Shown: positions 2,473 to 26,816 of the stretch, piece after piece
Numbering within the stretch: the stretch's first letter is position 1
Layout: the number at the start of each line of letters is the position of its first letter
Notes under the pieces: generated by a model
The model's input: the letters and a program-made list of their open reading frames with translations, nothing else
The model's database searches: none
Told to the model about the DNA's origin: nothing
Assembly: GCA_015232455.1 (NCBI GenBank)
Contig: JADFZQ010000034.1
Coordinates: 1 to 32,976 of the forward strand
DNA: 32,976 bases
Source of the DNA: Desulfamplus sp.
GTDB taxonomy: Bacteria > Desulfobacterota > Desulfobacteria > Desulfobacterales > Desulfobacteraceae
Direction: 5' to 3'
Translations under genes and position numbers: made by a program

Positions 2473-3042
2473 TTGAAAAGTTATAAAGTAAAAGAATTAA
2501 TGGTATCGCTGTCAAAATATGCGACAGTAGATGAAAAAGCAACGCTGTTTGAAGCTGTTTTAGCCCTTGAAAAGGCACAGGCTGCTTACCAAGGAACAAA
2601 GTATCCACACAGGGCGATACTTGTTCTTGATGCAAATGGACAGGTTTCAGGTAAGGTGAGCCAAATGGACGTGCTTCGTGCCCTTGAACCTAAGTATTCA
2701 GAGATGCAGGAGACTTCAAATCTTGCAATGTATGGTTTTTCCAGCAAATTTATAAAATCTCTTGTCAACTATTACAACCTTTGGGATTCACCACTCACTG
2801 ATCTTTGTAAAAAAGCAGGAGAGATACCAGTTATAAAATTTATGAGAAAGCCTATGGAAGGTGAATACATTGATGAAAGTGCATCGTTAGATGAGGCGAT
2901 TCATCAGTTGGTTTGTGGGCATCACCAATCTTTGCTTGTAACTAAAGATGATAAAATTACTGGAATTCTAAGACTTACCGATGTTTTTGACTCTATCTGC
3001 ACAGCAATGAAAACATGCGGTCTTGATAGTAATAATAGTTAG
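2473..3042 (+). CDS. Tandem CBS-domain protein
   Basis: This 189-residue soluble protein has two CBS domains (about residues 7-75 and 122-178), each ending in the typical V/I-x-D pattern (VSQMDVLRAL and ILRLTDVFDS). CBS pairs bind adenine nucleotides and often gate transporters or enzymes. The start is a TTG at 2473: AGGAGAGAG lies 7-8 nt upstream and no in-frame ATG occurs until Met10. The SLC13-type permease starts 68 bp downstream on the same strand with no terminator between them, so co-transcription and a regulatory partnership with the permease are likely. The linker between the domains (~80-118) is longer than usual and helix-rich. The ligand (AMP, ATP or other) cannot be read from sequence. 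Confidence 0.85.
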   Translation: MKSYKVKELMVSLSKYATVDEKATLFEAVLALEKAQAAYQGTKYPHRAILVLDANGQVSGKVSQMDVLRALEPKYSEMQETSNLAMYGFSSKFIKSLVNYYNLWDSPLTDLCKKAGEIPVIKFMRKPMEGEYIDESASLDEAIHQLVCGHHQSLLVTKDDKITGILRLTDVFDSICTAMKTCGLDSNNS

Positions 3043-3110: not shown

Positions 3111-4589
3111 ATGAATGTAGCAGTAGAGCAAACAAATAAAGTAAACTGGACTAAATATATCTGGCTTTCTGTTGGTGTAGTACTATTTCTGATCGTGTTC
3201 TATTCTCCAATGTGGCCAGACGCAGTTGATCCTATGGGAAAGCATTTTGCGTTAAGCCCTCAAGGCAAAGGTGCAATCGCACTATTTCTCCTTGCTGGCA
3301 CATGGTGGGTATTTGAAGTTGTTCCAATTGGTGTTACAAGTCTTGCAATCGGTGTCTTGCAGGCTTTGTTCATGATAAGAACTGCTGATGAAGCATTTAA
3401 GGATTTTATGGATCCTTCTGTAATGTTCATATTTGGTTCTATAGTAATCGGACTTGTATTCACAAAGACTGGTCTTACTAAACGTATGGCATACAAGATG
3501 TTGTCGATTGTGGGTGAGAAAACAAGCCTAATTTATCTCGGATGTTTTATGGTAATTGCATTTTTGACTCTGTTTATGGCTCATACTGCTGTTGCCGCAA
3601 CAATATATCCATTGCTTATAGCGATATACTCACTCTATGGAGAAAATGACAAACCAACTAAGTTCGGTAAAGGGCTTTTTATCGGAATGGCTTATGTGGC
3701 TGGAGCTGGTTCTGTTGTTACGCTGCTTGGTGCTGCCCGTGGTGCTGTTGCAATTGGTTTTTTTAAAGATATTGCAGGAAAGGAGATAAATTTTTTTGAA
3801 TTTACATATTATTTGTTGCCTGTAGGATGGCTTATGGTAGTTGCATTGTGGATATATTTCATGATTGTTCTAAAGCCTGAAAAAGCAACAATTCCCGGGC
3901 TTAAGGAAAGAGCAAAAAGACTTTATGAAGAGCTTGGCGGAGTTACAAAGAATGAAATTATAGCCGCACTCCTTGTTGGTGCTGTTATTGTATCGCTTGC
4001 CTCGTTTGCGATTTTAACTGCCTATGTCCCAGGTTTCAAAGCACCTAATAAAACCGCCGTAATGCTTATTTCAACTATTTTGTTTTTCATTACAGGTATT
4101 CTTGATATTGATGACCTTGAAGATATACCTTGGAACATAATTTTGCTTTTTGCTGGTGCAATGAGTATTGGTTTCTGTCTATGGAATACAGGTGCAGCCC
4201 AATGGATGGCTATTAACTGGCTTGCAATTTTTAAAGAATCTCACTGGTTTGTATTTGTAATGGGTATTGCTTTCTTTGTTCTTGTTATGACTAACTTTAT
4301 TATGAACGTAGCAGCAATTGCAATATCGTTGCCTGTAGCATTAGTAATTGCTCCATATCTTGGTGTCAGTGGGGAAGTTATTCTTTACGCTTCTCTTGTA
4401 ACTGCTGGTATGCCATTCTTGCTTCTTGTTGGTGCTGCACCTAACGCAATTGCCTATAACTCCAAGCAGTTTACACCGGGTGAATTTTTTATGTATGGAG
4501 TGCCTGCAAGTATTATTTTGATGGTTGTGTTAGGAATTGCCGTTTATATTATTTGGCCCATGATGGGTATGCCTATTCTTGTAAAGTAA
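3111..4589 (+). CDS. SLC13/DASS-type sodium:anion symporter family permease
   Basis: This 492-residue polytopic inner-membrane protein has about 12 hydrophobic segments and the two-fold architecture of the divalent anion:sodium symporters (di/tricarboxylates, sulfate). Family marks include GxWWxFEVVPIGVTSLA near residue 65, the re-entrant hairpin segments, and the late GAAPNAIAYNSKQFTPGEFF segment. The two hallmark Ser-Asn-Thr sites of the family, which coordinate sodium and substrate in VcINDY, are here Ala-His-Thr (157-159) and Met-Asn-Val (398-400), so ligand or coupling may differ. GGAGG precedes the ATG. It follows the CBS gene and is closed by a strong terminator. In a sulfate reducer, import of sulfate or a carboxylate is plausible; the substrate is inferred, not shown. 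Confidence 0.85.
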   Translation: MNVAVEQTNKVNWTKYIWLSVGVVLFLIVFYSPMWPDAVDPMGKHFALSPQGKGAIALFLLAGTWWVFEVVPIGVTSLAIGVLQALFMIRTADEAFKDFMDPSVMFIFGSIVIGLVFTKTGLTKRMAYKMLSIVGEKTSLIYLGCFMVIAFLTLFMAHTAVAATIYPLLIAIYSLYGENDKPTKFGKGLFIGMAYVAGAGSVVTLLGAARGAVAIGFFKDIAGKEINFFEFTYYLLPVGWLMVVALWIYFMIVLKPEKATIPGLKERAKRLYEELGGVTKNEIIAALLVGAVIVSLASFAILTAYVPGFKAPNKTAVMLISTILFFITGILDIDDLEDIPWNIILLFAGAMSIGFCLWNTGAAQWMAINWLAIFKESHWFVFVMGIAFFVLVMTNFIMNVAAIAISLPVALVIAPYLGVSGEVILYASLVTAGMPFLLLVGAAPNAIAYNSKQFTPGEFFMYGVPASIILMVVLGIAVYIIWPMMGMPILVK

Positions 4590-4657: not shown

Positions 4658-4803
4658 CTTTCTGAAATTCACTCAATTTAACCCCATTTAATCGAATTAT
4701 CTAATGTTTATCCCTCACTTTTGAGATACTAATAGTATATTAATATAACATTATCACCATTATTAGATTATTATCTCCCCTCATTTTCTTTGATTCAGCC
4801 TAC

Positions 4804-4819
4804 TGGCACGCATGTTGCT
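4804..4819 (+). promoter_or_regulatory. Sigma-54 (-24/-12) promoter
   Basis: TGGCACGCATGTTGCT matches the RpoN consensus TGGCAC-N5-TTGCW at every defined position: the GG of the -24 element at 4805-4806, the GC of the -12 element at 4817-4818, and a preceding C as in strong promoters. Transcription should start near 4830, about 50 bp before the kinase ATG. No bacterial enhancer-binding protein is encoded in the window, so the activator must be elsewhere. Confidence 0.85.
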
Positions 4820-4882: not shown

Positions 4883-6670
4883 ATGGAAAACACTTCAAAT
4901 AAAAAGTTCTCTAATTCAAATAAAGAGCGGACAATAATAGATAAAAATGAATCAAAAAAAGATAAATACTATTATCGTTCACTTTCCAGAAACATCATGT
5001 TTACTGTAATTATAGTCTCATTTATGCCTCTTATCTTTGTTGCTGGAGTTCTTTTTATACAGTTTACTACAACATACACAGCAAAAACAACTGCCCATCT
5101 TGATACTCTTGTGAAAAAACATCGCCAAAATATAGATGTATTTTTAAATGAAAGGCAGAATAACATCAATCAGTTAGCATCAATGTCAACATTTGAAAAT
5201 TTAAGCGATCATGCTTTTTTAGAACGACAACTTGCCATACTTCAGCGTGAATATGGAGAGGTTTTCACCGATCTTGCTGTTCTAAACGATCAAGGAGAGC
5301 AGGTTGCTTATGCTGGACCTTTTGGTCTTGAAGGGGCACATTACAAAGATGCCCAATGGTTTAAAGTAGCTATTAAACAGCCTCACTATATAAGTGATGT
5401 ATTTCTTGGAATGAGAGGATTTCCACACTTTACGGTAACAACACGCCAATTTAAAGATGGAAAACCTTGGATACTTAGAACTTCGGTTCACTTTCAGGCA
5501 TTTACCGATCTTGTCCAAAACATAAGAATTGGAAAAACTGGAGTTGCATTTATACTTAATCAAAACGGGGAGTTTCAAACGCATACATCTTTAAAGATTG
5601 AAAACCCTAAAGAGTTATACCAAAAGATGCTTCCTGAAAAAATATCGGAAACAGCTAATAATTTTGATACAAACACAATGAAAAAAGAGCTTATAAGCCA
5701 GCCTATAATTGAACACAGACATATTGGAAATACACTTTATGTAGCAACAATGCTTCAAAACAAAGATTGGGTTTTAATATTTCAACAAGATGCAGATGAT
5801 GCTTTTGCAGATTTAAACAAAATTCGGCTCATCGCATTAATAGCATTTACAGCAGGCGGTATCGCCATCATCACTATGGCAATTATTCTGTCTCAGCGTA
5901 TGGTTGCAAGAATTGTGAAGTCAGAGGGAGAAAAAGAGATGATGAATCAGCAGGTAATTGAACACGGAAGACTTGCAGCACTTGGGGAAATGGCAGCAGG
6001 TATTGCACACGAAATTAACAACCCAGTGGCAATTATGGTTGAAGAGGCAGGTTGGATAAAAGACCTTCTTGCAGAAGAGGAGTTTCAGAAAAGTGAAAAC
6101 CTTGAAGAGTTCACCCGTGCATTGGATCAGATACGAAAACAGGGCTTACGTTGTCGAGATATAACCCATAAACTCTTAAGTTTTGCAAGACCTGCTGAGA
6201 GCGGAAACCATATAATCAATATTAACGATATGATAACAGAGACTGTAAATCTATTCAGCCATGAGGCAAAATTTAGCAACATTACCTTTGAGCAGCATTT
6301 TAAGCAGAACAATCTCCAATTCATGGCTTCTCAAACTGAGATTCAGCAGATTCTATTTAATCTTATCAATAATGCAATGGACGCAATGAAAGATATTGGT
6401 GGGAAAATTTTAATCTCAACTTCAAAAGAAGACAAAATGGTAAAAATAAATGTGGAAGATAATGGTTCTGGTATTTCACAAGAGCATATCGCAAGGATAT
6501 TTGACCCATTTTTCACAACAAAACCTGTAGGAAAAGGAACGGGTCTTGGGCTTTATATCTGCTACGGAATTATCAACAAATTAGGCGGCAATATCACTGT
6601 AAAAAGTGCATTAAATCAAGGAACTGTATTTACCATATCAGTTCCAGCAATTGAAGACGAAGATGCTTGA
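4883..6670 (+). CDS. Membrane sensor histidine kinase with periplasmic Cache-like domain
   Basis: This 595-residue inner-membrane kinase is built as follows: cytosolic N-tail; TM1 (~38-61); periplasmic sensor region (~62-313) with the YAGPFGLEGAHYKDAQWF and FTVTTRQF patterns of double-Cache ligand sensors; TM2 (~315-339); dimerisation domain with the phospho-accepting His376 in GEMAAGIAHEINNP; and an HATPase domain with the N-box around N496-N497, DNGSG (526-530), FDPFFTTK (540-547) and GTGLGL (552-557). No PAS or receiver domain is attached. It belongs to the NtrB/DctB-like class often paired with sigma-54 activators, yet its neighbours are three receiver-only proteins. A GGCGGTGG ribosome site precedes the ATG. 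Cache domains of this type often bind small organic or inorganic anions. Confidence 0.92.
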   Translation: MENTSNKKFSNSNKERTIIDKNESKKDKYYYRSLSRNIMFTVIIVSFMPLIFVAGVLFIQFTTTYTAKTTAHLDTLVKKHRQNIDVFLNERQNNINQLASMSTFENLSDHAFLERQLAILQREYGEVFTDLAVLNDQGEQVAYAGPFGLEGAHYKDAQWFKVAIKQPHYISDVFLGMRGFPHFTVTTRQFKDGKPWILRTSVHFQAFTDLVQNIRIGKTGVAFILNQNGEFQTHTSLKIENPKELYQKMLPEKISETANNFDTNTMKKELISQPIIEHRHIGNTLYVATMLQNKDWVLIFQQDADDAFADLNKIRLIALIAFTAGGIAIITMAIILSQRMVARIVKSEGEKEMMNQQVIEHGRLAALGEMAAGIAHEINNPVAIMVEEAGWIKDLLAEEEFQKSENLEEFTRALDQIRKQGLRCRDITHKLLSFARPAESGNHIININDMITETVNLFSHEAKFSNITFEQHFKQNNLQFMASQTEIQQILFNLINNAMDAMKDIGGKILISTSKEDKMVKINVEDNGSGISQEHIARIFDPFFTTKPVGKGTGLGLYICYGIINKLGGNITVKSALNQGTVFTISVPAIEDEDA

Positions 6671-6787
6671 TAGCCAAAGCTCAAATCCAATACAAAAGTA
6701 GGTTGTAGGGAATAAGTGGAAAAAATATTTAAAATTTAAGCAATAGCAAAATCATAAAACAACACAATAAATTTAAGGAGGAAAACT

Positions 6788-7222
6788 ATGAATGAACCAA
6801 GATTAATGCTTGTAGATGATGAGGCTGCCTTTATCGAAGCAATAAGCAAAAGGCTGAAAAAACGTAATTTCAATGTTGAGATGGCTAACAGCGGCATAGA
6901 GGCATTAGAAAAACTTAACCAGGGCAGCTTTGATCCTGAAGTTATAATTTTAGATGTTAAAATGCCGGGAATGGATGGAATTGAGACTCTTGAAGAGATC
7001 AAACGTAAGTATCCACTTATTGAGGTGATTATGCTTACAGGTCATGCAACAGTTCCATCTGCAATTGATGGAATGAAAAAAGGTGCTTATGACTATCTTA
7101 TGAAGCCTTGCGATATGGAAGTTTTAGTAACAAAAGTGGGCGAAGCTGTGGAGAAAAAGAGGGCACAAGAGAACAAGATAATTGAAGCTCGTATGAAAGA
7201 TATTATGCGTAGAAAAGGCTAA
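6788..7222 (+). CDS. Stand-alone receiver (REC) protein 1
   Basis: This 144-residue protein is a CheY-like receiver with no output domain. The acidic pair is D10-D11, the phospho-accepting Asp is D56 in VIILDVKMPGMDG, the Thr is T84 in MLTGHA, and the Lys is K106 in MKP. The C-terminal ~25 residues form a charged helix rich in Lys, Arg and Glu. AAGGAGG precedes the ATG. It lies 117 bp after the kinase gene and is the first of three receivers in a row. All catalytic residues are intact, so it should be phosphorylated, most simply by the adjacent kinase. Confidence 0.92.
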   Translation: MNEPRLMLVDDEAAFIEAISKRLKKRNFNVEMANSGIEALEKLNQGSFDPEVIILDVKMPGMDGIETLEEIKRKYPLIEVIMLTGHATVPSAIDGMKKGAYDYLMKPCDMEVLVTKVGEAVEKKRAQENKIIEARMKDIMRRKG

Positions 7223-7262
7223 ATACTTACTCCCACACATCAGGGATAGGAGACAAAAGCTC

Positions 7263-7667
7263 ATGGAAAAAGATCATAAAACTCAACCTGAACTAATTGA
7301 ACTTCTTTTAGTAGATGATGAAGAGGGATTTGTTCAGGTTCTTTCAAAACGACTTAGCAAAAGAAACATCAATGTTACTACTTCGTTGAGCGGTGATGGA
7401 GCAATCCAGCAGTGTAAGCGTAAAAAATTTGATATTATGCTGCTTGATTTAAAGATGGAGTTCATGGACGGCATTGAAGTTTTAAAAGCATTGAAAGAGA
7501 TTGGAATTAATATGCCTGTTATTATGATCACAGGGCATGGCTCACTTGAAGATGCTAAAAAAGGGTTAGATTCTGGTGCTGTTGCCTGTCTTCCTAAGCC
7601 CTATGACTTTGAGGAGTTGGTAAAAAAGATCAGGGAAATTCATCAAGAGAGGAGGATTAATCAATGA
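7263..7667 (+). CDS. Stand-alone receiver (REC) protein 2
   Basis: This 134-residue receiver-only protein has D18-D19, phospho-accepting D62 in MLLDLKMEFMDG, T90 in MITGHG and K112 in PKP. The usual MPGMDG loop after the Asp is changed to MEFMDG, losing the conserved Pro-Gly next to the active site. The helix-4 region (SLEDAKKGLDSGAVACLPKP) also differs from the AYDYLMKP form shared by receivers 1 and 3. It therefore probably has a distinct partner surface or phosphate lifetime. AGGAG lies upstream. Its stop codon overlaps the start of receiver 3 (ATGA), indicating translational coupling. Confidence 0.9.
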   Translation: MEKDHKTQPELIELLLVDDEEGFVQVLSKRLSKRNINVTTSLSGDGAIQQCKRKKFDIMLLDLKMEFMDGIEVLKALKEIGINMPVIMITGHGSLEDAKKGLDSGAVACLPKPYDFEELVKKIREIHQERRINQ

Positions 7668-8059
7668 GCGAATTCAATGTATTGCTGGTTGATGACGAGG
7701 AAGACTTTTTAATGCCTCTCGGAAAACGGCTAAAAAAACGGCAGCTTAATATCCTGATGGCTTCTAATGGTCAAGATGCTCTCTCCATAATAAAAGAATC
7801 TCCTGTTGATGTTGTTGTGCTTGATATGAAGATGCCCGGGATAAATGGGCTTGAAACACTTAAAGAGATAAAAAAGATAAATGGGTTAATAGAGGTGATA
7901 ATGCTCACAGGTCATGCCAATATTGAAGTTGCAGTTCAAGGAATGGATTGTGGTGCTTATGACTATCTTATGAAACCCATGAATATTGATGAGCTTTACT
8001 ACAAGCTGCAAGATGCTTACGCAAATAAGGTTATTAAAGAGGGTAAAGCAAAAAGATGA
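7664..8059 (+). CDS. Stand-alone receiver (REC) protein 3
   Basis: This 131-residue receiver-only protein has D10-D11, phospho-accepting D54 in VVLDMKMPGING, T82 in MLTGHA and K104 in LMKP, so all catalytic residues are kept. It is closer to receiver 1 than to receiver 2: both share IEVIMLTGHA and AYDYLMKP. The start overlaps the receiver 2 stop by 4 bp, with GAGAGGAGG just upstream inside receiver 2. No output domain is present, so signalling must go through protein-protein contact or phosphotransfer. A cluster of palindromic repeats follows directly. Confidence 0.92.
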   Translation: MSEFNVLLVDDEEDFLMPLGKRLKKRQLNILMASNGQDALSIIKESPVDVVVLDMKMPGINGLETLKEIKKINGLIEVIMLTGHANIEVAVQGMDCGAYDYLMKPMNIDELYYKLQDAYANKVIKEGKAKR

Positions 8060-8060
8060 T

Positions 8061-8210
8061 GTAGTAGGGAACAATGGGTGTAGGGAACAACGATCGTTGT
8101 TCCCTACGGATTAAAAAATCAGGAATGATGATCGTTGTTCTCTACGGGTTAAAAAAAAATCAATAACAATGATCGTTGTTCCCTACAGGTTGAAAAATAA
8201 TGGAACTTTC
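8061..8210. repeat. Cluster of palindromic repeats (28-bp family)
   Basis: A perfect 28-bp palindrome lies at 8080-8107, consisting of GTAGGGAACAACGA followed by its reverse complement. A left half copy lies at 8061-8077. Three head-to-tail units of about 40 bp starting GATCGTTGTTC at 8092, 8130 and 8171 each carry the right arm plus an A-rich tail. The cluster fills the gap between receiver 3 and the TSUP permease. The palindrome can fold into a strong hairpin in mRNA. Other copies lie at 13241-13268 and 15001-15030. Confidence 0.85.
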
Positions 8211-8263
8211 AGGAGATATATCCTGATTAAATGACAACAATAAAAAAGAGGAAATGTAATCAA

Positions 8264-9541
8264 ATGAAATTTTTTAAAGAGTTTGGACAGTTTATGATGA
8301 TGGGTGCAAAAGCCCATGCAAAGTGGGAGATGGACGTATCCAACACCATTCTTAAAGACAAAAGAAGATTGATGATCCTTCTTATGCTCTGTATCCCAAT
8401 TGCTATTCTTGGAGTTGCATTTGCTGATCAAGTAGGTGATGCAATGCCTCACATGCTGGGTGGTAAAACTGCTTACAGTCCTGCATTTTTCACCCCTTTT
8501 ATCTTTGTTGCATCTATTCTTATCGGTGTCTGTGCGGGTCTTATTACAGGCTGCATTGGTGCTGGCGGCGGATTTATCATTGCTCCTGCTTTAATGAGTG
8601 CAGGAATTAAAGGTATTCTTGCTGTTGGAACTGACCTATTTCACATTTTTGCAAAAGCTATCATGGGTAGTGTTATTCACAGAAAACTTGGAAACGTCTC
8701 TGTTGGATTAGCACTTATCTTCTTGATTGGTGCAATTGTTGGTGCAACAGTTGGCGGTATGCTCAACCGTATTCTTTATGAGATTAACCCTGTTTTAAGC
8801 GATGCCTTTATCACAACCGTTTATTCACTGATGCTTGGAATGCTTGGTGCTTATTCAATGCTTGACTTTCTTAAAGCAAGAAAAGCAGGAGATACAAGCA
8901 GCGGACATGGCGGTAAAGCAGAGGGAGCTGAACTTGGAAATCTTCCTAAAAAACTTCAGGCAATCAATATTCCTCCAATGATTACATTTGATGAGGGTGT
9001 AGTTCCGGGTGGAAGAAAAATCTCTTGTGTATTCCTTATTCTAAGTGGTGCGTTGGTTGGTCTTACTGCATCAATTATGGGTGTTGGTGGTGGATTTCTA
9101 ACTTTCCCGATTTTTGTATATGTTCTTGGTGTCTCTTCAATGACAACCGTTGGAACAGATATTTTACAGATTGTTTTTACTGCTGGTTATGCTGCAATTA
9201 CCCAATATGCAATTTATGGTTTTATCTTCTACACAATGGCAATGGGAATGCTTCTTGGCTCACTTATCGGCATTCAGATTGGTGCTTTGGTAACTAAAGT
9301 TGTTACTGGAATCACAATTCGTGGATTCTATGCAATGGCAGTTTTAGCGGGTTTTGTAAACCGAATATTTGCTCTGCCAGCAAAGCTCAACTCTTTAGAT
9401 ATTATATCAATCACCCCAAAAACAATTGCTGTTCTTGATGGTATTGGAATCTACTCATTCTTTATAGTAATAGGCGGGTTTGCTGTATGGGTAATTGGTA
9501 CATTTTTAATGAACATCAAAGTACTTAAAGGAGGCAGATAA
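8264..9541 (+). CDS. TauE/SafE (TSUP) family permease
   Basis: This 425-residue polytopic membrane protein belongs to the 4-toluene sulfonate uptake permease family (TauE/SafE, DUF81). The two halves each carry the family glycine motif: IGAGGGFIIAP (~98-108) and MGVGGGFLTFP (~273-283), each followed by GTDxxxI. There are about 8-9 hydrophobic segments, plus a cytosolic N-tail of ~35 residues and a hydrophilic loop around 215-255. I chose the ATG at 8264 because AAGAGG lies 12 nt upstream; an in-frame ATG at 8231 would add 11 residues but has a badly spaced ribosome site. TSUP members move sulfite, sulfonates, sulfoacetate or similar anions. The next gene overlaps the stop codon. Confidence 0.88.
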   Translation: MKFFKEFGQFMMMGAKAHAKWEMDVSNTILKDKRRLMILLMLCIPIAILGVAFADQVGDAMPHMLGGKTAYSPAFFTPFIFVASILIGVCAGLITGCIGAGGGFIIAPALMSAGIKGILAVGTDLFHIFAKAIMGSVIHRKLGNVSVGLALIFLIGAIVGATVGGMLNRILYEINPVLSDAFITTVYSLMLGMLGAYSMLDFLKARKAGDTSSGHGGKAEGAELGNLPKKLQAINIPPMITFDEGVVPGGRKISCVFLILSGALVGLTASIMGVGGGFLTFPIFVYVLGVSSMTTVGTDILQIVFTAGYAAITQYAIYGFIFYTMAMGMLLGSLIGIQIGALVTKVVTGITIRGFYAMAVLAGFVNRIFALPAKLNSLDIISITPKTIAVLDGIGIYSFFIVIGGFAVWVIGTFLMNIKVLKGGR

Positions 9542-10239
9542 TGATTGCTCACAAAAATATATTCGCTAAAGGTGCGATTCTGATGGCTGGATTTCTGATT
9601 GTCCTTTTTATGATGTTCATGCCAATCTTTAACGGACATCATGCTATCAATATGATGGATAATCTCTATAACTCTATATCTAAAGGATCAGCCTACTATA
9701 TTGACGGGCTTATTAAAGACGCTGAAAAATATAAAGATACAGAGATAAAAGTTGATTTTAAATTGAAATCAACTGAGATGGCAGCAGAAGCTATGCAGAT
9801 TCTTACATCATCTGGTGCAAAGGTTGTACAAGATGGAGAGAAACTTGAAGTTGAAGGAAATCTTGGTGCAATTTTGCAAAATGCACTTGCAGATTCTGAC
9901 ATGATGTTTGCAAATGATGGAAAGAAACTTAAAGAAAAATATACATATAATGAATCTTATGATGAGAAAAAGGTGCTTTATAACTGGTGGAATGCTCTTA
10001 AAGGAACAAGTAAGTCTCTGACAAAACAGGAAAAATTTCCAGAAGCCAAATTTATAAACAACGTAATGACAAGAGCCGTAGAGTGTTCATACAACTACTA
10101 TAAGGTTCAGGCAGAAAATATAAAAGATAAAGCTGGTGTTGTAATATTTTCATTGGTTTTCTATGTAATTTACACAATATGGTTTGGTTTTGCTATCATG
10201 TATCTGTTTGAAGGCTGGGGTATGCAGCTTAGCCATTGA
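9541..10239 (+). CDS. Two-helix membrane protein coupled to TSUP permease
   Basis: This 232-residue protein has a TM helix at ~9-30, a soluble region at ~31-197 and a second TM helix at ~198-222. By charge pattern the soluble part probably faces the periplasm. The soluble domain begins with an acidic/Lys alternating stretch (IKVDFKLKSTEMAAEAMQIL), includes a GAKVVQDGEKLEVEG beta-like segment, and ends with a Tyr-rich helix. I do not recognise the family. Its ATG overlaps the TSUP stop (TAATG), and AAGGAGG sits inside the end of the permease gene, so the two are translationally coupled. This makes it a good candidate for a dedicated accessory or anion-binding subunit of the permease. Confidence 0.82.
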   Translation: MIAHKNIFAKGAILMAGFLIVLFMMFMPIFNGHHAINMMDNLYNSISKGSAYYIDGLIKDAEKYKDTEIKVDFKLKSTEMAAEAMQILTSSGAKVVQDGEKLEVEGNLGAILQNALADSDMMFANDGKKLKEKYTYNESYDEKKVLYNWWNALKGTSKSLTKQEKFPEAKFINNVMTRAVECSYNYYKVQAENIKDKAGVVIFSLVFYVIYTIWFGFAIMYLFEGWGMQLSH

Positions 10240-10495: not shown

Positions 10496-10771
10496 TCATG
10501 CAATGGCAAAACGAATGGTTTTACCAACAGCTTGAGCGTAATTTATCAATGTTGATAGGCTAATATTTTCAGTATGGTTTTCAATTCTGGAGATAGCGGA
10601 TTTACGAGTCTTTAAAACTGCTGCTACTTGCTCTTGAGTTAAGCCTGCTTCAAGTCGTGCCTGTTTAAGGAGAACACCAATTTTGAACTGTTCGTATCCT
10701 TCGTCAAAATTATTTGCAAATTTAGAACTCATGTTTTTTCGGTTTTCAATATATTTATCAAGATCATCCAT
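10496..10771 (-). CDS. higA: HigA-type HTH antitoxin
   Basis: This 91-residue protein has an Xre/Cro-type helix-turn-helix at ~35-90 ([20 protein letters not shown], then [10 protein letters not shown], then [13 protein letters not shown]). The N-terminal ~30 residues are hydrophilic, as in HigA2-like antitoxins that clamp the toxin with one end. The gene follows and overlaps the toxin gene by 8 bp, the toxin-first order typical of higBA. It should repress its own promoter upstream of the toxin gene. Symbol given by family resemblance. Confidence 0.85.
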
Positions 10772-11120
10772 TTGGTTTTCTCCTGTTTAGGTATTCTTTT
10801 TTACGTTGTTCGGCTATATTTATCTCCTTTATAGGAGTTTTGCGGCTCTTTTTTTGAAAAAAATTGGTTAAGATGATCAATTCGTTATCACAGAAAAAGC
10901 AAAGAATGCGAAAAGTATCTTTGCCAATATCAATTATAACTTCCCAAATACCATCTGTATTAACTAACTTTTTGAGGTAATTACTTGGAACATAGTCAAG
11001 CTCACGAATAAGTTTTAATACCCATGCCACTTTTTGAGCTTGGGTATCTGTAAGATTATCAAAATAATCTTTAACAGGGCATCTCCCTGACTCCGTTTTA
11101 TAAAATAAGATAGTTTTCAT
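10764..11120 (-). CDS. higB: HigB/RelE-type toxin (phage Gp49-like)
   Basis: This 118-residue protein resembles the Gp49-like HigB branch of RelE-fold ribosome-dependent mRNA interferases. Family marks include [10 protein letters not shown] near the N-terminus, [28 protein letters not shown] in the core, and [28 protein letters not shown] at the C-terminus. The frame is open to 11225, but the family N-terminus begins at the ATG at 11120 ([12 protein letters not shown]); an ATG at 11135 is the alternative. No strong ribosome site is visible. A TTGACA lies upstream on the minus strand without a good -10. The divergent PEP-synthase-like gene starts 88 bp away. Confidence 0.8.
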
Positions 11121-11208
11121 TTTTAATGAGTACATAAATGTTTGAATTTTGTCAATATTCAAAACTTTACATAAAAGAAGACAACCTTGTGGATTTAAGG
11201 AAAATAAT

Positions 11209-14154
11209 ATGGGCTGGATTGACACGCTTAGACAATGGTTAAATATAAAAGAACCTGAAGCTACTCCAGAAGAGATACAGAAGACAGAGGAGCTTAGGAA
11301 TGAGTTTAAAGAACGATACCATCACTTTAAAGTGCTTCTTGCTGCAAATCAAAAATCTCTTGAGGGAATGGCAGATATTGAACAGGCTCTTGCTGGTTCT
11401 ACTCCATTCTCAATGACCTTTATCCGTTCAAGATGCACTGACGTTGCTGTCAATGTGCTGAAAATGATAAGAGATTTAGAACATCTTGCCCCTGAAAAAT
11501 ATGAGCTTCTATCACCCATCTTCTTTCAAATCCGCAAATCAGTTGATGATATTCTAACTGAAAAACGCCCTATTTTACCAAGAGAGATTGTCGTTCCGCT
11601 TGCTCCACCCCCTTCCCCCTCCCCAATAGAGAGGGGGAATAATCATTCCCTACCCTTAGGGAGGAGGGGCGGGGAGGGGCAAAATAATTATCTGGAAAAC
11701 TATATAAGTAGCCAAGAGAGCATAATTTTACCACCTGATTTAGTTGGAAGTAAGATGGCATCACTTGCAGAGATTGGACGCTGCTGCAATGTCAATATTC
11801 CGCGTGGTTTTGTTATTACCTCTTATGCTTACGAACTTTTTGTTCATGCAGGAGAAGGTGGGATTAAAACTGAAAATGCCGATATAAAAACTTATGCGGG
11901 CGGACTTCAAACTGAAATTGATAGATTGATTCAAAGCTGTGATTCTGACGATATTGAGGCAATGCACGCTCTAAGCGGCAAAATTCGTCAAATGATTATT
12001 AAGGCAGCTATACCTGAGCAAGTTGTTCAGGCAATTGAAAGTGCATGGGAAAACCTTGAATCAGAATATGATAGTCAATCAATACGCAACATATCTTCGC
12101 CATCTCATGGCAATCCTAGCCATAATAAGCATAATAGTTCATTGAGAGTAGCATTAAGAAGCAGTGCATTAGGTGAAGATTCACAAAATAGCTCTTTTGC
12201 TGGGCAGTATCATTCAGAATTAAATGTCAGCAAAGAGTCGGTTTTTGAAGCATACAAGAGTGTCGTAGCAAGTAAATACACACTCCATGCCATGATGTAT
12301 CGGATAAACAAAGGTTTCAGGGATGAAGATGTACCAATGGCTGTTGGCTGCATCCAGATGGTTGATGCTGTATCAGGTGGAGTTATCTATTCAGGAAATC
12401 CAGTTGACAGCAGTGATAACTCAATATTTATAAGCGCTGTTTTTGGTCTTCCAAAGGCGGTTGTTGATGGTGCTGTTCCAAGCGACTTATTTGTTGTATC
12501 CAGATCTGGTTTGCAAACTGGCTTGCGTATTATCAGAGAAGAGATAGCAATCAAAGATAAAAAATTTGTCTGCTACCCTGAAGAGGGTGTATGTCGAATG
12601 GAAATATCAACTCAAGAAAGTAGAAAACCCGCGATTTCGCCAGAACAGGTTATTGAACTTGCAAAGATAGCCTTAAAACTTGAATCCTATTTTGGCACAC
12701 CTCAAGATATTGAGTGGGCAATTGATAATAATGGCGAATTTCTTATTCTTCAGAGCCGACCACTTCAACAGAACAAAGGAGCTGATTTACCTAAAATTGA
12801 AACTAAAAGTGATGTTGTTAATGAAACCAAAAATGGTGTTGTTAATGATATATTAACTGAAAATTTGATTGCACAAGGCGGCATATCTGCTTCACAGGGT
12901 ATTGCTTCAGGCGAGGCTTTTGTTGCTTTAAAGAATGTTGATATTTTAAGATTTCCGTCAGGTGGTGTTCTTATTATTCGCCAAGCTCTTCCTGAATGGG
13001 CAACGGTTGCTGCAAGGGCATCAGCAATTTTATCGGAACAGGGCAGTGCAGCAAGTCATCTTGCAAGTGTTGCAAGGGAGTTTAAAGTTCCTGCTATTTT
13101 TGGACTTAAAGGGATTACATCAAAAATAAAATCTGGTGAGAAAATCACTGTAAATGCTGATTCTCAAATGGTATTACAATATAGGGAACAAGAATTATTA
13201 CAAGATAGAGAACAAGAATATTGTAGAGAACAGGAATATTGTAGGGAACAACGATCGTTGTTCCCTACTACTTTTAAGGGGGTAGAAAAAATAAATCCCA
13301 TGAAAGGAAGTCCTGTTTATAATCTTCTTCAAAGATGCTCTCGCCATATAGTTCCTCTAAATCTTCTTGACCCTGATTCATACGATTTCAAACCACAAAA
13401 TTGCAAAACATTCCATGACATCACAAGATTTATCCATGAGAAATCTGTATCAGAGATGTTCAGCTTTGGGAAAAATCACGATTTCCCTGAAAAGAGCAGC
13501 AAGCAGCTTCACTATAAAGTGCCGATGCAGTGGTATATTCTTGATTTAGATGACGGATTTTCTGTTCCGATAAAAGGCAAATATGTAAAACTTGAAGAGA
13601 TAGCCTCAATTCCAATGCTTGCATTTTGGGACGGTTTTGTAGCAATCCCTTGGGACGGGCCGCCAGCAATGGACGGAAGAGGCATGATGTCTGTGATGTT
13701 CCAATCAACTGCAAACACAGCTTTGACTACTGGAATACAATCAGCTTATGCCCAGCATAACTATTTTATGATCTCAAAAAACTATTGCAGTCTCAACTCA
13801 AGGCTTGGATACCACTTTTCAACTATGGAGGCGTTAGTTAGCGAGCGAATTTCTGAAAATTATATCACGTTTCAATTTAAAGGCGGTGCAGCAGACAAAC
13901 AGCGGCGTTTAAATAGAGTTCATTTTATAGGAAATATTCTTGAAGATTATGGTTTTAGAGCAATAATTCGTGAAGATCATCTGACAGCACGTATTCAAGG
14001 TTATGACCAAATGTTTATGAAAAGTCGACTAAAAATACTTGGACATCTCACACTTCATACAAGACAACTTGATATGATTATGACCAATCCTGCTCAAGTA
14101 GCCTTTTATGGTAATAAACTTAGAAAAGAGATTGATTCGTTTGAACTTAGCTAA
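11209..14154 (+). CDS. PEP synthase/PPDK-like phosphotransferase with unusual C-terminus
   Basis: This 981-residue protein starts at the ATG at 11209 (AAGG 8 nt upstream); the frame is open 20 codons further but without a ribosome site. Domains: N-terminal helical region (~1-125); repeat-derived insert (~131-160); PEP/pyruvate-binding ATP-grasp domain (~175-520) with DLVGSKMASLAEI, ALRSSALGEDSQNSSFAGQY and IEWAID...LQSRP; mobile phospho-His domain (~560-655) with the catalytic His617 in GSAASHLASVAREFKVPAIFG; second repeat-derived insert (~658-687); and a ~295-residue C-terminal region (PLNLLDPDSYDF, FHDITRFIHEKSVSEMF) in place of the PEP-binding TIM barrel. The enzyme can probably phosphorylate its His from ATP, but the final acceptor is unknown. 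It is cytosolic, possibly regulatory. Confidence 0.85.
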   Translation: MGWIDTLRQWLNIKEPEATPEEIQKTEELRNEFKERYHHFKVLLAANQKSLEGMADIEQALAGSTPFSMTFIRSRCTDVAVNVLKMIRDLEHLAPEKYELLSPIFFQIRKSVDDILTEKRPILPREIVVPLAPPPSPSPIERGNNHSLPLGRRGGEGQNNYLENYISSQESIILPPDLVGSKMASLAEIGRCCNVNIPRGFVITSYAYELFVHAGEGGIKTENADIKTYAGGLQTEIDRLIQSCDSDDIEAMHALSGKIRQMIIKAAIPEQVVQAIESAWENLESEYDSQSIRNISSPSHGNPSHNKHNSSLRVALRSSALGEDSQNSSFAGQYHSELNVSKESVFEAYKSVVASKYTLHAMMYRINKGFRDEDVPMAVGCIQMVDAVSGGVIYSGNPVDSSDNSIFISAVFGLPKAVVDGAVPSDLFVVSRSGLQTGLRIIREEIAIKDKKFVCYPEEGVCRMEISTQESRKPAISPEQVIELAKIALKLESYFGTPQDIEWAIDNNGEFLILQSRPLQQNKGADLPKIETKSDVVNETKNGVVNDILTENLIAQGGISASQGIASGEAFVALKNVDILRFPSGGVLIIRQALPEWATVAARASAILSEQGSAASHLASVAREFKVPAIFGLKGITSKIKSGEKITVNADSQMVLQYREQELLQDREQEYCREQEYCREQRSLFPTTFKGVEKINPMKGSPVYNLLQRCSRHIVPLNLLDPDSYDFKPQNCKTFHDITRFIHEKSVSEMFSFGKNHDFPEKSSKQLHYKVPMQWYILDLDDGFSVPIKGKYVKLEEIASIPMLAFWDGFVAIPWDGPPAMDGRGMMSVMFQSTANTALTTGIQSAYAQHNYFMISKNYCSLNSRLGYHFSTMEALVSERISENYITFQFKGGAADKQRRLNRVHFIGNILEDYGFRAIIREDHLTARIQGYDQMFMKSRLKILGHLTLHTRQLDMIMTNPAQVAFYGNKLRKEIDSFELS
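11600..11682. repeat. G/C-rich palindromic element inserted in coding sequence
   Basis: This 83-bp stretch is strikingly G/C-rich in an AT-rich gene. Its ends are imperfectly complementary (TTGCTCCACCCCC against GGGGAGGGGCAA), and inner blocks CCCCCTCCCC and GAGGGGGAA also pair. It is read in frame as a Pro/Ser then Gly/Arg-rich linker (about residues 131-160 of the PEP-synthase-like protein) between two domains. It looks like a REP/MITE-like palindromic element captured by the gene. Confidence 0.75.
13180..13268. repeat. 28-bp palindrome plus tandem half-units inside a gene
   Basis: A perfect 28-bp copy (13241-13268) is identical to the intergenic copy at 8080-8107. It is preceded by three degenerate left-arm units (around 13180-13194, 13195-13218 and 13219-13236), each containing AGRGAACARGAA. 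All are read in frame as repeated REQE tetrapeptides (~658-687 of the PEP-synthase-like protein), between the phospho-His domain and the C-terminal region. Confidence 0.85.
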
Positions 14155-15475: not shown

Positions 15476-18400
15476 ATGGCAATTCAAGGATTTGATACAA
15501 ATTATTTTATAGACGCTTTATTTGCTTATGCTAAAGAAGAATATAGCGAATGGGCAACAGGAAAAACTACAGACGATCTAAAAGAGCTTTTGGGAAATTT
15601 TTATCCAGATGCAGAAGATGTTGATGCTGCTGCAGAGCAGTTTTACACAGAGTATGGTGCAGCATGGGGACTTGCTCCTAACGCTTATTTTAACGCTGCT
15701 GAATACAGACTTGCTTATGCAGAAAAACAGGTTGCAGAGAATAAAGCATTTACAGTAGATGCTGCCCTTAAAGCTTATGATGCAGAATTAGCAGATGAAG
15801 AGGGAGAGTATCATGGCGATGCTTATGCACATTACCTTGCAGTTGGTGCTGCAATGGGCGTGAACCCATCTAATGCTTTTGACGAGTCAGATTATCTACA
15901 GTCTATTATTGATGGAACAGATAGTGAAATGACAGTTGACGAACTTCGTCAGGCTGCTATTGACGCTGGACTTACTCCAGTTGATTTCTATGTTGATTAT
16001 CCAGAGTATCAGACAGAATATCCTGCAATTCCAGTTACAGGTGATGAACTTGTAAATGTTACTCCTGTTATGACAAGTTTTACACTTACTAACGGGTCAG
16101 ATACTGCTACTGCAAACATTTTTAACGCTCCTCAAGTTTATACTCCTGGTGGAGATGACAGAATCAACTCTCTGCAAGATGAAGATAGACTCACAGGCAC
16201 AGGCACAAATCCAACATTAACAGCGGATCTTGGTAATGCAAATGATAATGGAGCAAGAGTTATTACTCCAGAATTAAATAACATTGAGACTCTTAATGTT
16301 GCTTTCACAGGATCTGATGCTGCTTTTGCTGTTACTACACTTGATCTTCAGGATGAAACAGGACTCAATGCTTTAAATGTTACTCGTATTTCTCAGGCAG
16401 TCAATGGTGCTGAAGTTGCCAATATTATGACAGCACTGACTGATATTTCTATAGCTAACACAAATGCTAACCAAACCGGTGTTGCCGAAGTCTCCTTCAC
16501 TGCTGGCGTTCTTGCTGGTGACAACAGTGCTAACCTGACGATCTCTAATGTTAATGTGAATAACCTTAATATTGGTATGAATACATCTGGTGTTGGAGCT
16601 GTAGTTGCTGGGGCATGGGTACCAGCTTTTGGAGTTGGCACACAAGGGTACGAAAATCTAACTATCAAAAGCAGCGGTGCAGCCAATACTATCGGTGCTT
16701 TGAACGTTCCCATGGACACTGACACTGACAACGTTCTAAAAATCACTGGTGATAAAGATTTAACTCTTGCCCAGACAATCAATGTTGTTAGTCCTACAGG
16801 TGTAATAGAGTCTCAGAATCATACTGGCGGTGTTCAGATGGCAAACGGTCGTTTAGCTGCAATAGATGCTTCTGAATTTACTGGTAACCTGACTTTGAAT
16901 ATTGCAAATGGAAACCTTACAACAAATAAAGCTGGCACATCCGGTGTTGTCCAGAATGTAAGCATAACAGGTGGTACTGGTAACGATACTTTCTACCTTG
17001 CAGATGTTATTCAAGCAGGTGATAGCATAACTGGTGGTGATGGTACTGACACCATGGTTATAGTAAATGGTGGTTCAGTTGGTACTACATCTTCAGTTGT
17101 TGGTTCTGTAGAGACATTAAAGATTGAGCTTAACGCTACCAATGGTCTTGCGGTTGGAACCGCTGCTGCTAACCAGACAGCAACTGTTGATTTTGACAAG
17201 CTTGCCAGCGTAACCAGCATAAGTTTACGTAATGTTTCTAATAGTAATGTTGCTTTCCCTGGTCCTGCTGCTCCTTTTGCAGGTGCTATTGACACATATA
17301 CTCTCAATAATCTTACTGCTGCACAGGCTGCTGCAATATCTATAATGCATTCAGACTCATTGAACAACAACATTCTGAATAACATTATTAATGCCAACCT
17401 TAAGACGGCTACCGGAACTTCAGATACAGTTGCTGTAACAATTTCAGAGGGCGTTAATAACGATCCACGTTTCAACTTTATCCTCAATGCAGCTTCTGTA
17501 GAGAATATTACTCTGGTTGATGCAGATTCTGAGTCAAATACAGTTGCTCTTGGAAACTTTGGTAATCATACAGGTACTCTTACTATTGGCACAACAGCAG
17601 GTACAGGTGTAGCTGGTTCATTCCTAAACCTTGATACTACAGCTACTGGTACTAATGGTGGTGTATATCAGTATTCAACAACAGGTCTTGCTGTTGCAGG
17701 TGCTGCTGATGCTGCAGGTTTCGCTGCAGCCAATGGTCAGATTATTGATCTTAGTGCAGTTGTCAACCCCAACCAGGTAAAAATTGCTGCTGCAACAATC
17801 AATGCATCTGCTGAACTTGGTAATGTTATTGTACGTGTAAGCTCCAATGCTGCTTCTGCAGTAGGTGCTCAGGCAATTACAATGGGTGCAGGTAATGATA
17901 CTGTTATCTTTGATAATGCTGCTGATAACCGTGCAGGTCTCACAATTTCTGATACAGTAGCCGGTGGTGCAGGTACTGGTGACGTTCTGATGATTGATGG
18001 TAACCTTACTGTTGCAGGGCAGATTGCTCTTGGTGCTTCTGAATGGACAAACGTAACTGGCTTTGAGACAATCCGTCTTGTTAATCCAGGACCAGCAGGA
18101 AGTTCATATGCACTTACGCTTACTGACAGTCTTATCACAAACAACAATAACAACGGATCACTTGCAATTGTAAACGATCATGATCCTATAAACGATACTG
18201 GTCGTACAGTTGCTGCTGCTCTTGCATTTAATGTCGCTGCTGTTGGTGCTGGTACGCCTGTTCGTAATAATGCATATAATGCTGCTGGTCAGACTGAAGC
18301 TCCAGTTACTATTGATGCTCGTTCGCTTTCTGCTTCTGCAAAATTCAGTTATAATGGCGAAGAGGGTTCTGATATCGTTAATGTAGCAACTGATACTGCA

Positions 18401-24661: not shown

Positions 24662-24689
24662 ACATGTATAATACTGGTATGATACATGT
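24662..24689 (+). promoter_or_regulatory. 28-bp near-palindrome overlapping a TATAAT box
   Basis: ACATGTAT (24662-24669) and ATACATGT (24682-24689) are perfect arms, and inner ATAC/GTAT also match, giving 12 of 14 paired positions. A perfect TATAAT (24667-24672) lies inside; no good -35 box is seen at the usual distance. This looks like an operator that would block the promoter of the following two-component genes. Confidence 0.5.
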
Positions 24690-26151
24690 AAACAATATGA
24701 AAAATTTGCTCAAGCATTCTCCGGCTTTTATGAAGCGTTTATGGTGTCAGCTTGCCGTAAGCTACACACTGCTTACCTTCTGTGCGATGATGCTACTCGT
24801 TGTAATTCTATACGGGATAAACGATTACAGCGATTTTCATGCGACTCTTACACTGGATAATGTTGAAAAACGTGTAGCTGACGAAAAGCTCATTATCGCA
24901 CAGGCAATCCATGATGCTGATAACGCCGAATGGCTGAATAAAGTGCGAAATAACATACGTGAAAAATTGATAAACTTGGAGCATGGCAGTCGCACTTCAA
25001 CCTACCGCATTACCAATTCCAGCCGTCCTGAAATGTACATTCAGATTACCAGTAGAAACGGATATCTCCTGATGTCTGACCCTGCCAGTTTCCCCGAAAA
25101 AATAGCAACCCTGTTCACTGCACAAAAAAAGCTGACCACCGTAAGAACCAGTGTTACATGGCTGGCGGAAAATGGGACTATCTGGATAGATATGCCGATA
25201 ATGGATGACCATGATGGAAGGATTGGACACTTGCACGTGTTGTATATCGCTGAATTTGATTTCATGGTGCAGCTTAAAAGTGTTTTTGATTTTCTGTTCT
25301 TCACTTGGGGTAAAGTGTTTTTTCTTTCTCTGCCAATAGGCATAGCCTGCGGTTTTGTGGCGTCCCGTTATGTAACAAGGCAATTGCAGAAAATGAATGA
25401 AGTTACCGAAAGCTGGCGGCAAGGGGACTTTAAGGTGCGTATTGAGCTGCCGAGTGACGATGTATTTACCCGGCACAGCTGGTATCTCAATGAAATGGCA
25501 CAGGATTTGGAGATGTACCTGAATTTGAAACAAAGTCTTGCCGTAAGAGATGAACGCAATCGTATGGCACGGGAATTACACGATACGGTGAAACAGAAGC
25601 TTTTTGCACTGGGCTTGCAGCTGGCAATCGCCAAAGCCAAGCCTGTTGTGATGGAAGCCGCCAGCGAGCATATTCTTGAGGCGGAAGCTATTGCCCGTGA
25701 AGCACAGAAGGATATCAAGGAAATTATCACCCAACTGCGCCCCGCGGGAACCAATGACGGCTCGCTTTACGACCGTATCAGCATGATTGCCGATGATTTC
25801 AGGCGTCGTTTTGATTTAAATATAGAGTTAAAGCATTCAGAACCAGTTAAATGTAATGGTCACACAGAGCACCATGTATTGCGAATTGTGCAGGAATCGT
25901 TAATGAATGCGGTGTGCCATGGCAAGGCGTCTGAAATCGTTATCGCATGCAAAATCGACCAAGAGGTTGTTATTCTGATGATTTCAGATAACGGGAGAGG
26001 CTTTGATATTGACCAAAGTAAGGAGGAGGGAGGATTCGGCATTGTCTCCATGCACGACAGGGTGCGAGATTTGCCGCACGGAACCTTTGAAATTAAAAGC
26101 ACCGCAGGTGCCGGAACACATATTAGGATATCATGGAAGAACGAATTATGA
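24664..26151 (+). CDS. NarX/LiaS-type sensor histidine kinase (HisKA_3)
   Basis: This protein has up to 495 residues: TM1 (~29-51), a periplasmic sensor region (~52-208), TM2 (~212-235), a HAMP-like linker (~236-290), a HisKA_3 dimerisation domain with phospho-accepting His306 in MARELHDTVKQ, and an HATPase domain with N415, DNGRGF (442-447) and GGFGI (456-460). It partners the LuxR-type regulator that overlaps its stop. The first ATG (24664) lies inside the putative operator and lacks a ribosome site; ATGs at 24697 or 24730 may be the true start. Codon choice is visibly more G+C-rich than in genes to the left, suggesting a different origin. The ligand is unknown; no nitrate P-box-like motif is evident. 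Confidence 0.9.
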   Translation: MYNTGMIHVNNMKNLLKHSPAFMKRLWCQLAVSYTLLTFCAMMLLVVILYGINDYSDFHATLTLDNVEKRVADEKLIIAQAIHDADNAEWLNKVRNNIREKLINLEHGSRTSTYRITNSSRPEMYIQITSRNGYLLMSDPASFPEKIATLFTAQKKLTTVRTSVTWLAENGTIWIDMPIMDDHDGRIGHLHVLYIAEFDFMVQLKSVFDFLFFTWGKVFFLSLPIGIACGFVASRYVTRQLQKMNEVTESWRQGDFKVRIELPSDDVFTRHSWYLNEMAQDLEMYLNLKQSLAVRDERNRMARELHDTVKQKLFALGLQLAIAKAKPVVMEAASEHILEAEAIAREAQKDIKEIITQLRPAGTNDGSLYDRISMIADDFRRRFDLNIELKHSEPVKCNGHTEHHVLRIVQESLMNAVCHGKASEIVIACKIDQEVVILMISDNGRGFDIDQSKEEGGFGIVSMHDRVRDLPHGTFEIKSTAGAGTHIRISWKNEL

Positions 26152-26816
26152 CTGAAAAAATTACACTCATTCTTGCCGACGATCACCCAATGGTTCGCAA
26201 AGGGCTAAGTGCCTTCCTTACCACCGCCAAAGATATTGAAGTGATGGCTGTTGCGTCAGGAGGCATGGAGGTAGTGTCCGCCGCCAGAAAACATGTGCCG
26301 GACGTGGTGCTGCTTGACCTGCTTATGCCCGATCAGCCTGCACTTGAAACCGTGCGCCAGATTAAGAAAGTCAGTCCACGCAGCCAAATTATTATGCTTA
26401 CTTCTCATGAAGGTGATGAATATGTAGTGCCGCTGACGCAGGCAGGAGCAATCTCCTATATCCTTAAAGACATATCGCCAGAGGAACTTATCAATGCTGT
26501 GCGAAAAGCGGCGGTAGGAGAGAGTACGATAAGCCCGCGAGTCGCCAAGACTCTTGTGATGGTTGTCACGCAGGCACGGGTAACTAAAACGCGGGAAGAC
26601 CAACTCTACGAAGATTTAACCGAGCGTGAGATGGAAGTGCTGCATTGTATCGCGGAAGGATTGTCAAACATGGACATCGCGACACGGCTGAATATTTCGC
26701 AAAAAACCGTTAAATCGCATGTGAGCAATATTTTGAGCAAGCTTTATTTAACAGATCGCACACAGGCTGCCGTATATGCATGGCGCGAGGGAATTGTAAA
26801 AGTTCGGAAAACCTGA
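26148..26816 (+). CDS. NarL/FixJ-type response regulator
   Basis: This 222-residue protein has a receiver domain with D11-D12, phospho-accepting D57 in VVLLDLLMPD, T85 in IIMLTSHE and K107 in ILKDIS, and a LuxR-type HTH at ~158-222 (LTEREMEVLHCIAEGLSNMDIATRL, then TVKSHVSNILSKL). I use the ATG at 26148: GGAAGA lies 7 nt upstream and it overlaps the kinase stop as ATGA, which fits translational coupling. An in-frame ATG at 26133 would add five residues. As with its kinase partner, base composition is richer in G+C than the left half of the window. It probably controls transcription locally; the palindrome at 24662 is one candidate site. Confidence 0.93.
   Translation: MTEKITLILADDHPMVRKGLSAFLTTAKDIEVMAVASGGMEVVSAARKHVPDVVLLDLLMPDQPALETVRQIKKVSPRSQIIMLTSHEGDEYVVPLTQAGAISYILKDISPEELINAVRKAAVGESTISPRVAKTLVMVVTQARVTKTREDQLYEDLTEREMEVLHCIAEGLSNMDIATRLNISQKTVKSHVSNILSKLYLTDRTQAAVYAWREGIVKVRKT

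Follow-up and report, generated by a model that had tools for sequence, protein, structure and literature searches.

We analysed a 32,976-nucleotide stretch of Desulfamplus sp. (contig JADFZQ010000034.1, assembly GCA_015232455.1; hereafter the window), whose forward strand carries a conserved block of signalling, transport and enzyme genes. The block opens with a membrane sensor histidine kinase (HK, 4883-6670), in which Pfam recognizes dCache_1, HisKA and HATPase_c domains. Three single-domain receivers follow, R1 (6788-7222), R2 (7263-7667) and R3 (7664-8059, overlapping R2), each with a Response_reg domain only (Pfam, 7.5e-30, 4.8e-28 and 1.1e-30, respectively). Next come a TSUP permease (TauE/SafE, PF01925; 8231-9541, Pfam 9e-34) and a 232-residue protein, P8 (9541-10239), whose gene overlaps that of the permease by 1 nt. 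An earlier note on this DNA described the Cache-type kinase, three receiver-only proteins with intact active sites, the permease and the overlapping small membrane protein, and the open reading frames (ORFs), Pfam and the active sites of R1-R3 bear this out. It overlooked one gene. The conserved block extends past P8 to a phosphoenolpyruvate (PEP)-synthase-like gene, PPS, at about 11209-14154 (Pfam; the ORF is listed from a TTG at 11149, and we prefer the ATG at 11209), which is its last gene. A sigma-54 (-24/-12) promoter, CTGGCACGCATGTTGCT, lies on the same strand at 4803-4819, with 0 mismatches and 63 bp before the start codon of the kinase.

Conservation of the block

Permease relatives were collected from named genome contigs, and the best 80 of at least 546 were kept, a selection that therefore favours close relatives; the relatives put the window in or next to Desulfamplus, and the best named match (locus L039) is 97% identical. 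Additional loci were taken around P8 in genomes of the phylum. Loci L119-L168 were found or chosen mostly via P8, so P8 is favoured in that subset, and L129-L168 were hand-picked, mostly one or two per family. For the synteny and co-occurrence counts 10 duplicate loci were removed (130 to 120); they were kept in the receiver tree and active-site set, the sigma-54 upstream scans and the activator counts. The window (L180) is counted within the sets of 87, 30, 112 and 75 loci used below.

The earlier note would have taken a lack of conserved clustering in relatives as evidence against a distinct system. We ran this synteny check and found the layout kept in many relatives, with a clustering of the block genes far beyond chance. 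Among the 87 non-identical loci with at least 5 kb of upstream sequence, HK, R1, R2 and R3 are all present upstream of the permease in 30, and none of them is present in 35. Gene order varies among the 30 full loci: R1 precedes the kinase in L045 and L055, and another permease-kinase-receiver set is inserted between R2 and R3 in L065 and L107. An orthologous kinase is accompanied by R1 in 38/43 loci, by R2 in 42/43 and by R3 in 35/43, compared with 2/44, 2/44 and 8/44, respectively, where the kinase is missing. Because this co-occurrence is tighter for R1 and R2 than for R3, we read HK-R1-R2 as a probable input unit and R3 as a more independent element.

Downstream, P8 is the next gene after the permease in 109 of the 112 loci with enough sequence (70/72 among the permease-found loci); in the three misses (L084, L117 and L166) the frame that holds P8 starts upstream, is 402-411 aa long and fails the position rule. 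Of the 57 permease-found relatives with 4.5 kb of downstream sequence, 44 have a PPS gene that begins no more than 1.7 kb from the end of the permease gene and on its strand, and 8 more have one elsewhere downstream.

Linkage of receivers and PPS

Around TSUP-P8, single-domain receivers and PPS tend to occur together. Both are present in 54 of 75 loci, a receiver only in 2, PPS only in 7 and neither in 12. The permease-found loci (40: both 33, receiver only 1, PPS only 3, neither 3) and the other loci (34, with the window apart: 20, 1, 4 and 9, respectively) were also counted separately. One locus scored as having neither, L168, has HK-R1-R2-R3-PPS just downstream, beyond the distance limits. 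In L149, L150, L168, L187 and L188 an R3-like receiver adjoins PPS with no TSUP gene between them, and the R3 model leads by 11-18 bits.

Approaching the linkage from the PPS side, we examined 40 PPS loci, 7 PEP synthase controls and 13 arbitrary control stretches, all hand-picked, with some PPS copies cut by the end of the stretch. A receiver lies within 2.5 kb of 28 of the 47 PPS copies in these loci, and a TSUP-family gene within 6 kb of 27. Without the 10 copies scoring above 1180 bits, the values are 18/37 and 21/37; three of these 21 TSUP-neighboured copies (L186, L189 and L196) see the same TSUP-P8 block. Near ordinary PEP synthases, a receiver was found in 2/7 cases and a TSUP gene in 0/7, and 143 sliding positions in the 13 arbitrary 20-kb blocks gave 7.7% and 0%, respectively. 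Since the loci are interrelated and the controls small, these counts should be taken as a pattern and not as independent events.

The kinase and the receivers

HK and R1-R3 have the hallmarks of a two-component system. The kinase combines HisKA and HATPase_c with a phospho-accepting His, and its HEINN H-box is kept in 90% or more of the 36 orthologues aligned; the receivers carry the acidic pocket, the Asp, the Thr/Ser and the Lys. Across 132 receivers (129 from relatives and 3 from the window) the phosphoryl-acceptor Asp is found in 130 (2 Gly), the active-site Thr in 128 (3 Ser, 1 Ala), the Lys in all 132 and the acidic-pocket Asp in 127 (5 gaps). R2 has E instead of P at D+4, which is the consensus of its clade.

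The tree of these 132 receivers sorts by gene position with few exceptions. The middle receivers (R2) form one clade with a support of 0.999, the first (R1) a group of 34 at 0.636 (0.854 for a subset of 31), and the last (R3) a group of 59 at 0.877. Because the tree splits by position, R1, R2 and R3 represent three old lineages and no recent amplification. Receivers as such are common in this genome, which has 156 receiver-domain matches.

Receiver helix alpha-1 touches the kinase in solved complexes. Among R1, R2 and R3 of one locus the identity of this helix is 0.46-0.49, versus 0.14 to 46 receivers of NtrC type encoded in the collected loci, and the whole-domain values are 0.44-0.54 versus 0.31. 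Helices alpha-4 and alpha-5 are more divergent among the three (29-44% identity). This combination fits one kinase that would serve receivers with different outputs, and shared descent contributes to the likeness. The earlier note proposed a branched phosphorelay, and one kinase with three output-less receivers is indeed present; a strict His-Asp-His-Asp relay is not indicated, because the Pfam scan of the block proteins found no Hpt domain. Parallel phosphorylation of the receivers is the simpler reading.

The PEP-synthase-like protein

PPS consists of a helical N-region, an ATP-grasp domain (PPDK_N), a phosphohistidine PEP-utilizers domain and, at about residues 700-981, a C-terminal domain that matches no Pfam family and for which the PDB holds no convincing relative by sequence. 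The ATP-grasp and phosphohistidine motifs are intact, including the catalytic His. In an alignment of the window protein with 48 relatives (from 55 non-redundant sequences, 58 before), His617 is present in 48/48 readable rows, and the C-terminal domain has 10 polar residues that are the same in 49/49 sequences. PPS is not an ordinary PEP synthase: it reaches 295.2 bits on TIGR01418, against a curated cut-off of 739.75, and its best stretch spans positions 14-450 of the 784 in the model, ending before the PEP/pyruvate barrel.

Relatives of PPS are not restricted to the block. A match containing the C-terminal domain was found in 25 of 27 P8-bearing genomes tested, in some cases far from P8, and at least three TSUP types, distinguished by length and neighbours, occur near PPS: one of 427 residues that is paired with P8, one of 350 residues next to DUF4881 and one of 307-343 residues. 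The window's genome encodes three PPS proteins with the C-terminal domain, two of them near a TSUP gene and receivers. The second cluster, on contig C22, comprises another TSUP (~350 residues), DUF4881, a receiver, PPS and a hybrid kinase. In this cluster (L178; G000 contig C22:68000-87900) the hybrid kinase has SBP_bac_3, receiver and Hpt domains, the permease is 354 aa long, and a 285-aa protein of no assigned family accompanies the PPS paralogue, the DUF4881 protein and the single receiver. We also noted a PPS homologue in L132 that looks broken, being split into two ORFs (6218-8119 and 8259-8789, reverse strand) beside TSUP-P8 with a Usp-domain protein between; an HK-REC-REC-PPS arrangement lies nearby on the opposite strand.

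The permease, P8 and their distribution

The permease belongs clearly to the TSUP family, with a PF01925 score of 117.6 bits (cut-off 32.6) and GGGF and VGTD motifs in both halves; full-length relatives are 63-97% identical. P8 was aligned with 66 relatives (from 82 non-redundant candidates, 95 before). It has no Pfam family match and is predicted to contain two membrane helices (5-26 and 194-225) flanking a soluble alpha/beta domain, with a pLDDT of 93.7 for the AF2 model.

Of 395 genomes sampled from the phylum, 97 carry P8. DsrA matches at E <= 1e-100 in 92 of these 97, a count made by eye, and 188 of the 395 genomes pass this cut-off overall. The P8 genomes without a passing DsrA are G134, G150, G169 and G219, which are 62-80% complete, and G350, which is 100% complete; the window's genome has DsrA. 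The occurrence of the module mainly in dissimilatory sulfite reducers points to a sulfur anion as the probable permease substrate, and carbon substrates are also possible.

Interpretation of the block

We tentatively favour, with somewhat less than even confidence, the reading that dissimilatory sulfate/sulfite reducers may have in this block an anion permease module transcribed with sigma-54 and controlled by the kinase, in which the receivers would act by contact and PPS would be a likelier client than the permease. The anatomy of the block and its conservation are demonstrated, and the following steps of a mechanism are proposals. The dCache domain of the kinase would sense a periplasmic ligand, as its family suggests. 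HK may then phosphorylate R1, R2 and R3 in parallel, as their linkage and the shared alpha-1 face suggest, with R1 and R2 belonging to the kinase unit and tuning or distributing the signal. Phosphorylated R3 would contact the output unit TSUP-P8-PPS, and the co-occurrence pattern makes PPS a likelier partner than the permease. PPS, given its intact motifs, could charge its histidine from ATP and hand the phosphoryl group to an acceptor bound by its C-terminal domain. This may be coupled to the movement of an anion, most likely a sulfur compound, through TSUP-P8, a step suggested by the permease family and the co-occurrence with DsrA.

Several observations weigh against this reading. PPS occurs without a receiver near TSUP-P8 in 7/75 loci, and TSUP-P8 occurs with neither receivers nor PPS nearby in 12/75 (e.g., L137 and L162-L164), so the permease can do without them. 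HK, R1 and R2 are found without a receiver passing the R3 threshold in 7/87 loci. The receiver near PPS is R1-like or undecided in L140, L156, L193 and L194. Some PPS relatives have neither a receiver nor a TSUP gene nearby (L208, L209, L211-L213, L221, L222 and others), as does the third PPS of the window's genome (L179). Because the loci are related, Fisher values make the association look stronger than is warranted. Phylogeny confounds the co-occurrence with DsrA, which does not identify the substrate either. Finally, with a sigma-54 promoter and activators close by, the output could be ordinary transcription.

The main rival is a circuit that works by transcription alone, though we consider it a good deal less probable than the module described above. 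In it, HK would feed a sigma-54 activator nearby or elsewhere that switches on the operon, together with the receivers, which would serve as phosphate sinks or intermediates; the DNA-binding partner would be hidden by the layout. The earlier note stated that the set has no DNA-binding output, and this is true inside the block; it has to be qualified by the exact promoter and by frequent nearby activators. CTGGCACGCATGTTGCT is the only exact match in the window to the -24/-12 consensus, and its position before the first gene suggests a sigma-54-dependent operon. Allowing up to 3 mismatches gives 30 matches in the window versus 23.35 expected, and only the exact match counts because the weaker ones are no more than chance. 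A site with 0-1 mismatch lies upstream of 7/48 orthologous kinases, versus 0/144 mononucleotide shuffles. At up to one mismatch it was found upstream of 1/116 TSUP genes, and none was found upstream of P8 (0/128) or PPS (0/73). A sigma-54 activator response regulator is encoded within 9.5 kb in 32/68 loci, which together with the exact promoter makes a transcriptional output possible, and the TSUP operon of Desulfovibrio vulgaris that includes DVU2958 is described as sigma-54-dependent (PMC4641369, PMC5840216). However, the nearby activators often have another kinase beside them, and 32/48 orthologous kinases have no upstream site even at up to 2 mismatches. Three separately conserved receivers exceed the needs of such a circuit, and the receivers near TSUP-P8 go with PPS.

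The earlier note also suggested that the receivers may act directly on the transporters. In this case, phosphorylated R3 would bind the cytoplasmic face of TSUP-P8 and gate transport, and PPS would be a metabolic neighbour. R3-group receivers do lie directly upstream of the permease gene in many loci, TSUP-P8 forms the operon's membrane part, and the permease has a conserved central loop. This loop (KLQ...PPM..FD), like parts of the N-terminal segment, is, however, conserved also in lineages that lack receivers, which argues against a receiver dock on the permease. In addition, the R3-like receiver stays with PPS and not with the TSUP gene in the five loci named above, and where PPS is missing, receivers are seldom found near TSUP-P8 (2/14). 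We found no positive support for direct action on the permease and regard it as unlikely.

A bolder reading would have the phosphohistidine domain of PPS swap phosphoryl groups with the stand-alone receivers, as donor or acceptor, so that the membrane kinase and the ATP/AMP state would together set permease activity. The block would then be a receiver-controlled analogue of the phosphotransferase system, used with several TSUP subfamilies in sulfate reducers. We consider this quite improbable.

Least probable of all, and very doubtful, is that the receivers are chemotaxis or motility receivers captured beside the permease: single-domain receivers are typical of chemotaxis, but no match to CheA, CheW or MCP families turned up in a Pfam scan of 23 window proteins, the top 25 NCBIfam models listed for each receiver are headed by NtrC/AtoC/FixJ/NosR/PleD/GlrR-type models and include no CheY model (CheB is the sole chemotaxis model, for R1 and R3), and the kinase is a membrane HisKA protein linked to TSUP-P8-PPS. 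A chemotaxis role, which the earlier note had named as the other finding that would speak against its proposal, thus left no sign in these scans.

The block offers a conserved, testable case of putative receiver-only signalling toward a permease/enzyme pair in sulfate reducers. It adds P8 as an unnamed, constant permease partner, and it draws attention to a widespread PEP-synthase-like family with a strongly conserved C-terminal domain, beside receivers and TSUP permeases.

Neighbouring genes

Between P8 and PPS the window has an HTH_3 and Gp49 pair of toxin-antitoxin type on the reverse strand (10496-11225, Pfam), presumably HigBA-like. It lies outside the conserved block; in L039, a close relative, the gap between P8 and PPS is short and lacks it. 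That gap contains, by eye, a perfect hairpin followed by a T-rich stretch (L039 12025-12059), a possible attenuator before PPS.

Upstream of the block, on the forward strand, are a CBS-pair protein (2473-3042, Pfam) and an SLC13/DASS permease (3111-4589, Pfam Na_sulph_symp/CitMHS). Both are shared with L039 and sporadic elsewhere. The SLC13-type permease, which the earlier note listed with the set, is therefore present as a loose neighbour and is not a conserved part of the block. Among the best 80 named loci, many of which have short upstream sequence, DASS relatives above 400 bits occur only in L039, L061, L067, L103 and L116.

Farther downstream on the forward strand, Pfam recognizes no family at 1e-6 in an 1835-aa ORF (15476-20983). 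A separate two-component pair of the ordinary sort (24664-26816) is made up of a HisKA_3 kinase and a response regulator of LuxR type (GerE); genes for a methyltransferase and a DUF2860 protein come after it.

Comparison with known systems

The individual parts of the block are of known kinds. In the open-licence papers searched, we found no description of the gene combination, of P8 or of the C-terminal domain of PPS. With TSUP/TauE/SafE permeases in general, the block's permease shares PF01925, the GGGF and VGTD motifs in both halves and sulfate-reducer hosts; unlike them, it has a constant partner, P8, together with receivers and PPS. This likeness is at the level of the family. A "CysZ/clade B" TSUP group is described from sulfate reducers, where TSUP proteins are abundant (PMC5840216). 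From PEP synthase, rifampin phosphotransferase and PPDK, PPS differs in that its match ends before the barrel and in its extra helical N-region and Pfam-less C-terminal domain.

The D. vulgaris operon DVU2957-DVU2964 (also given as DVU2957-DVU2967) resembles the block, as far as its published description can be compared, in having a TSUP gene, DVU2958, in a sigma-54-dependent operon of a sulfate reducer together with a regulatory gene, DVU2960 (PMC4641369, PMC5840216). The sigma-54 activator DVU2956 binds upstream of DVU2957 according to the same sources, and PMC8586430 reports that it lowers biofilm formation. The operon is listed under "transmembrane transport", and the passages describing it mention no role of a receiver or of PPS.

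CheY, Spo0F and DivK belong to circuits of single-domain response regulators, and the block shares with these circuits the receiver-only outputs. It differs in having three old paralogues, each with a set position, and in their tie to a permease and a dikinase-like protein. Single-domain regulators (SDRRs) are also mentioned in PMC12471899. The block can further be compared with the transporter-kinase co-sensing systems BceAB-BceS, DctA-DcuS and Pst-PhoR, in which kinase and transporter genes work as a unit (PMC6978683). These systems end in DNA-binding regulators and place the transporter upstream of the signal, whereas the receivers of the block are output-less.

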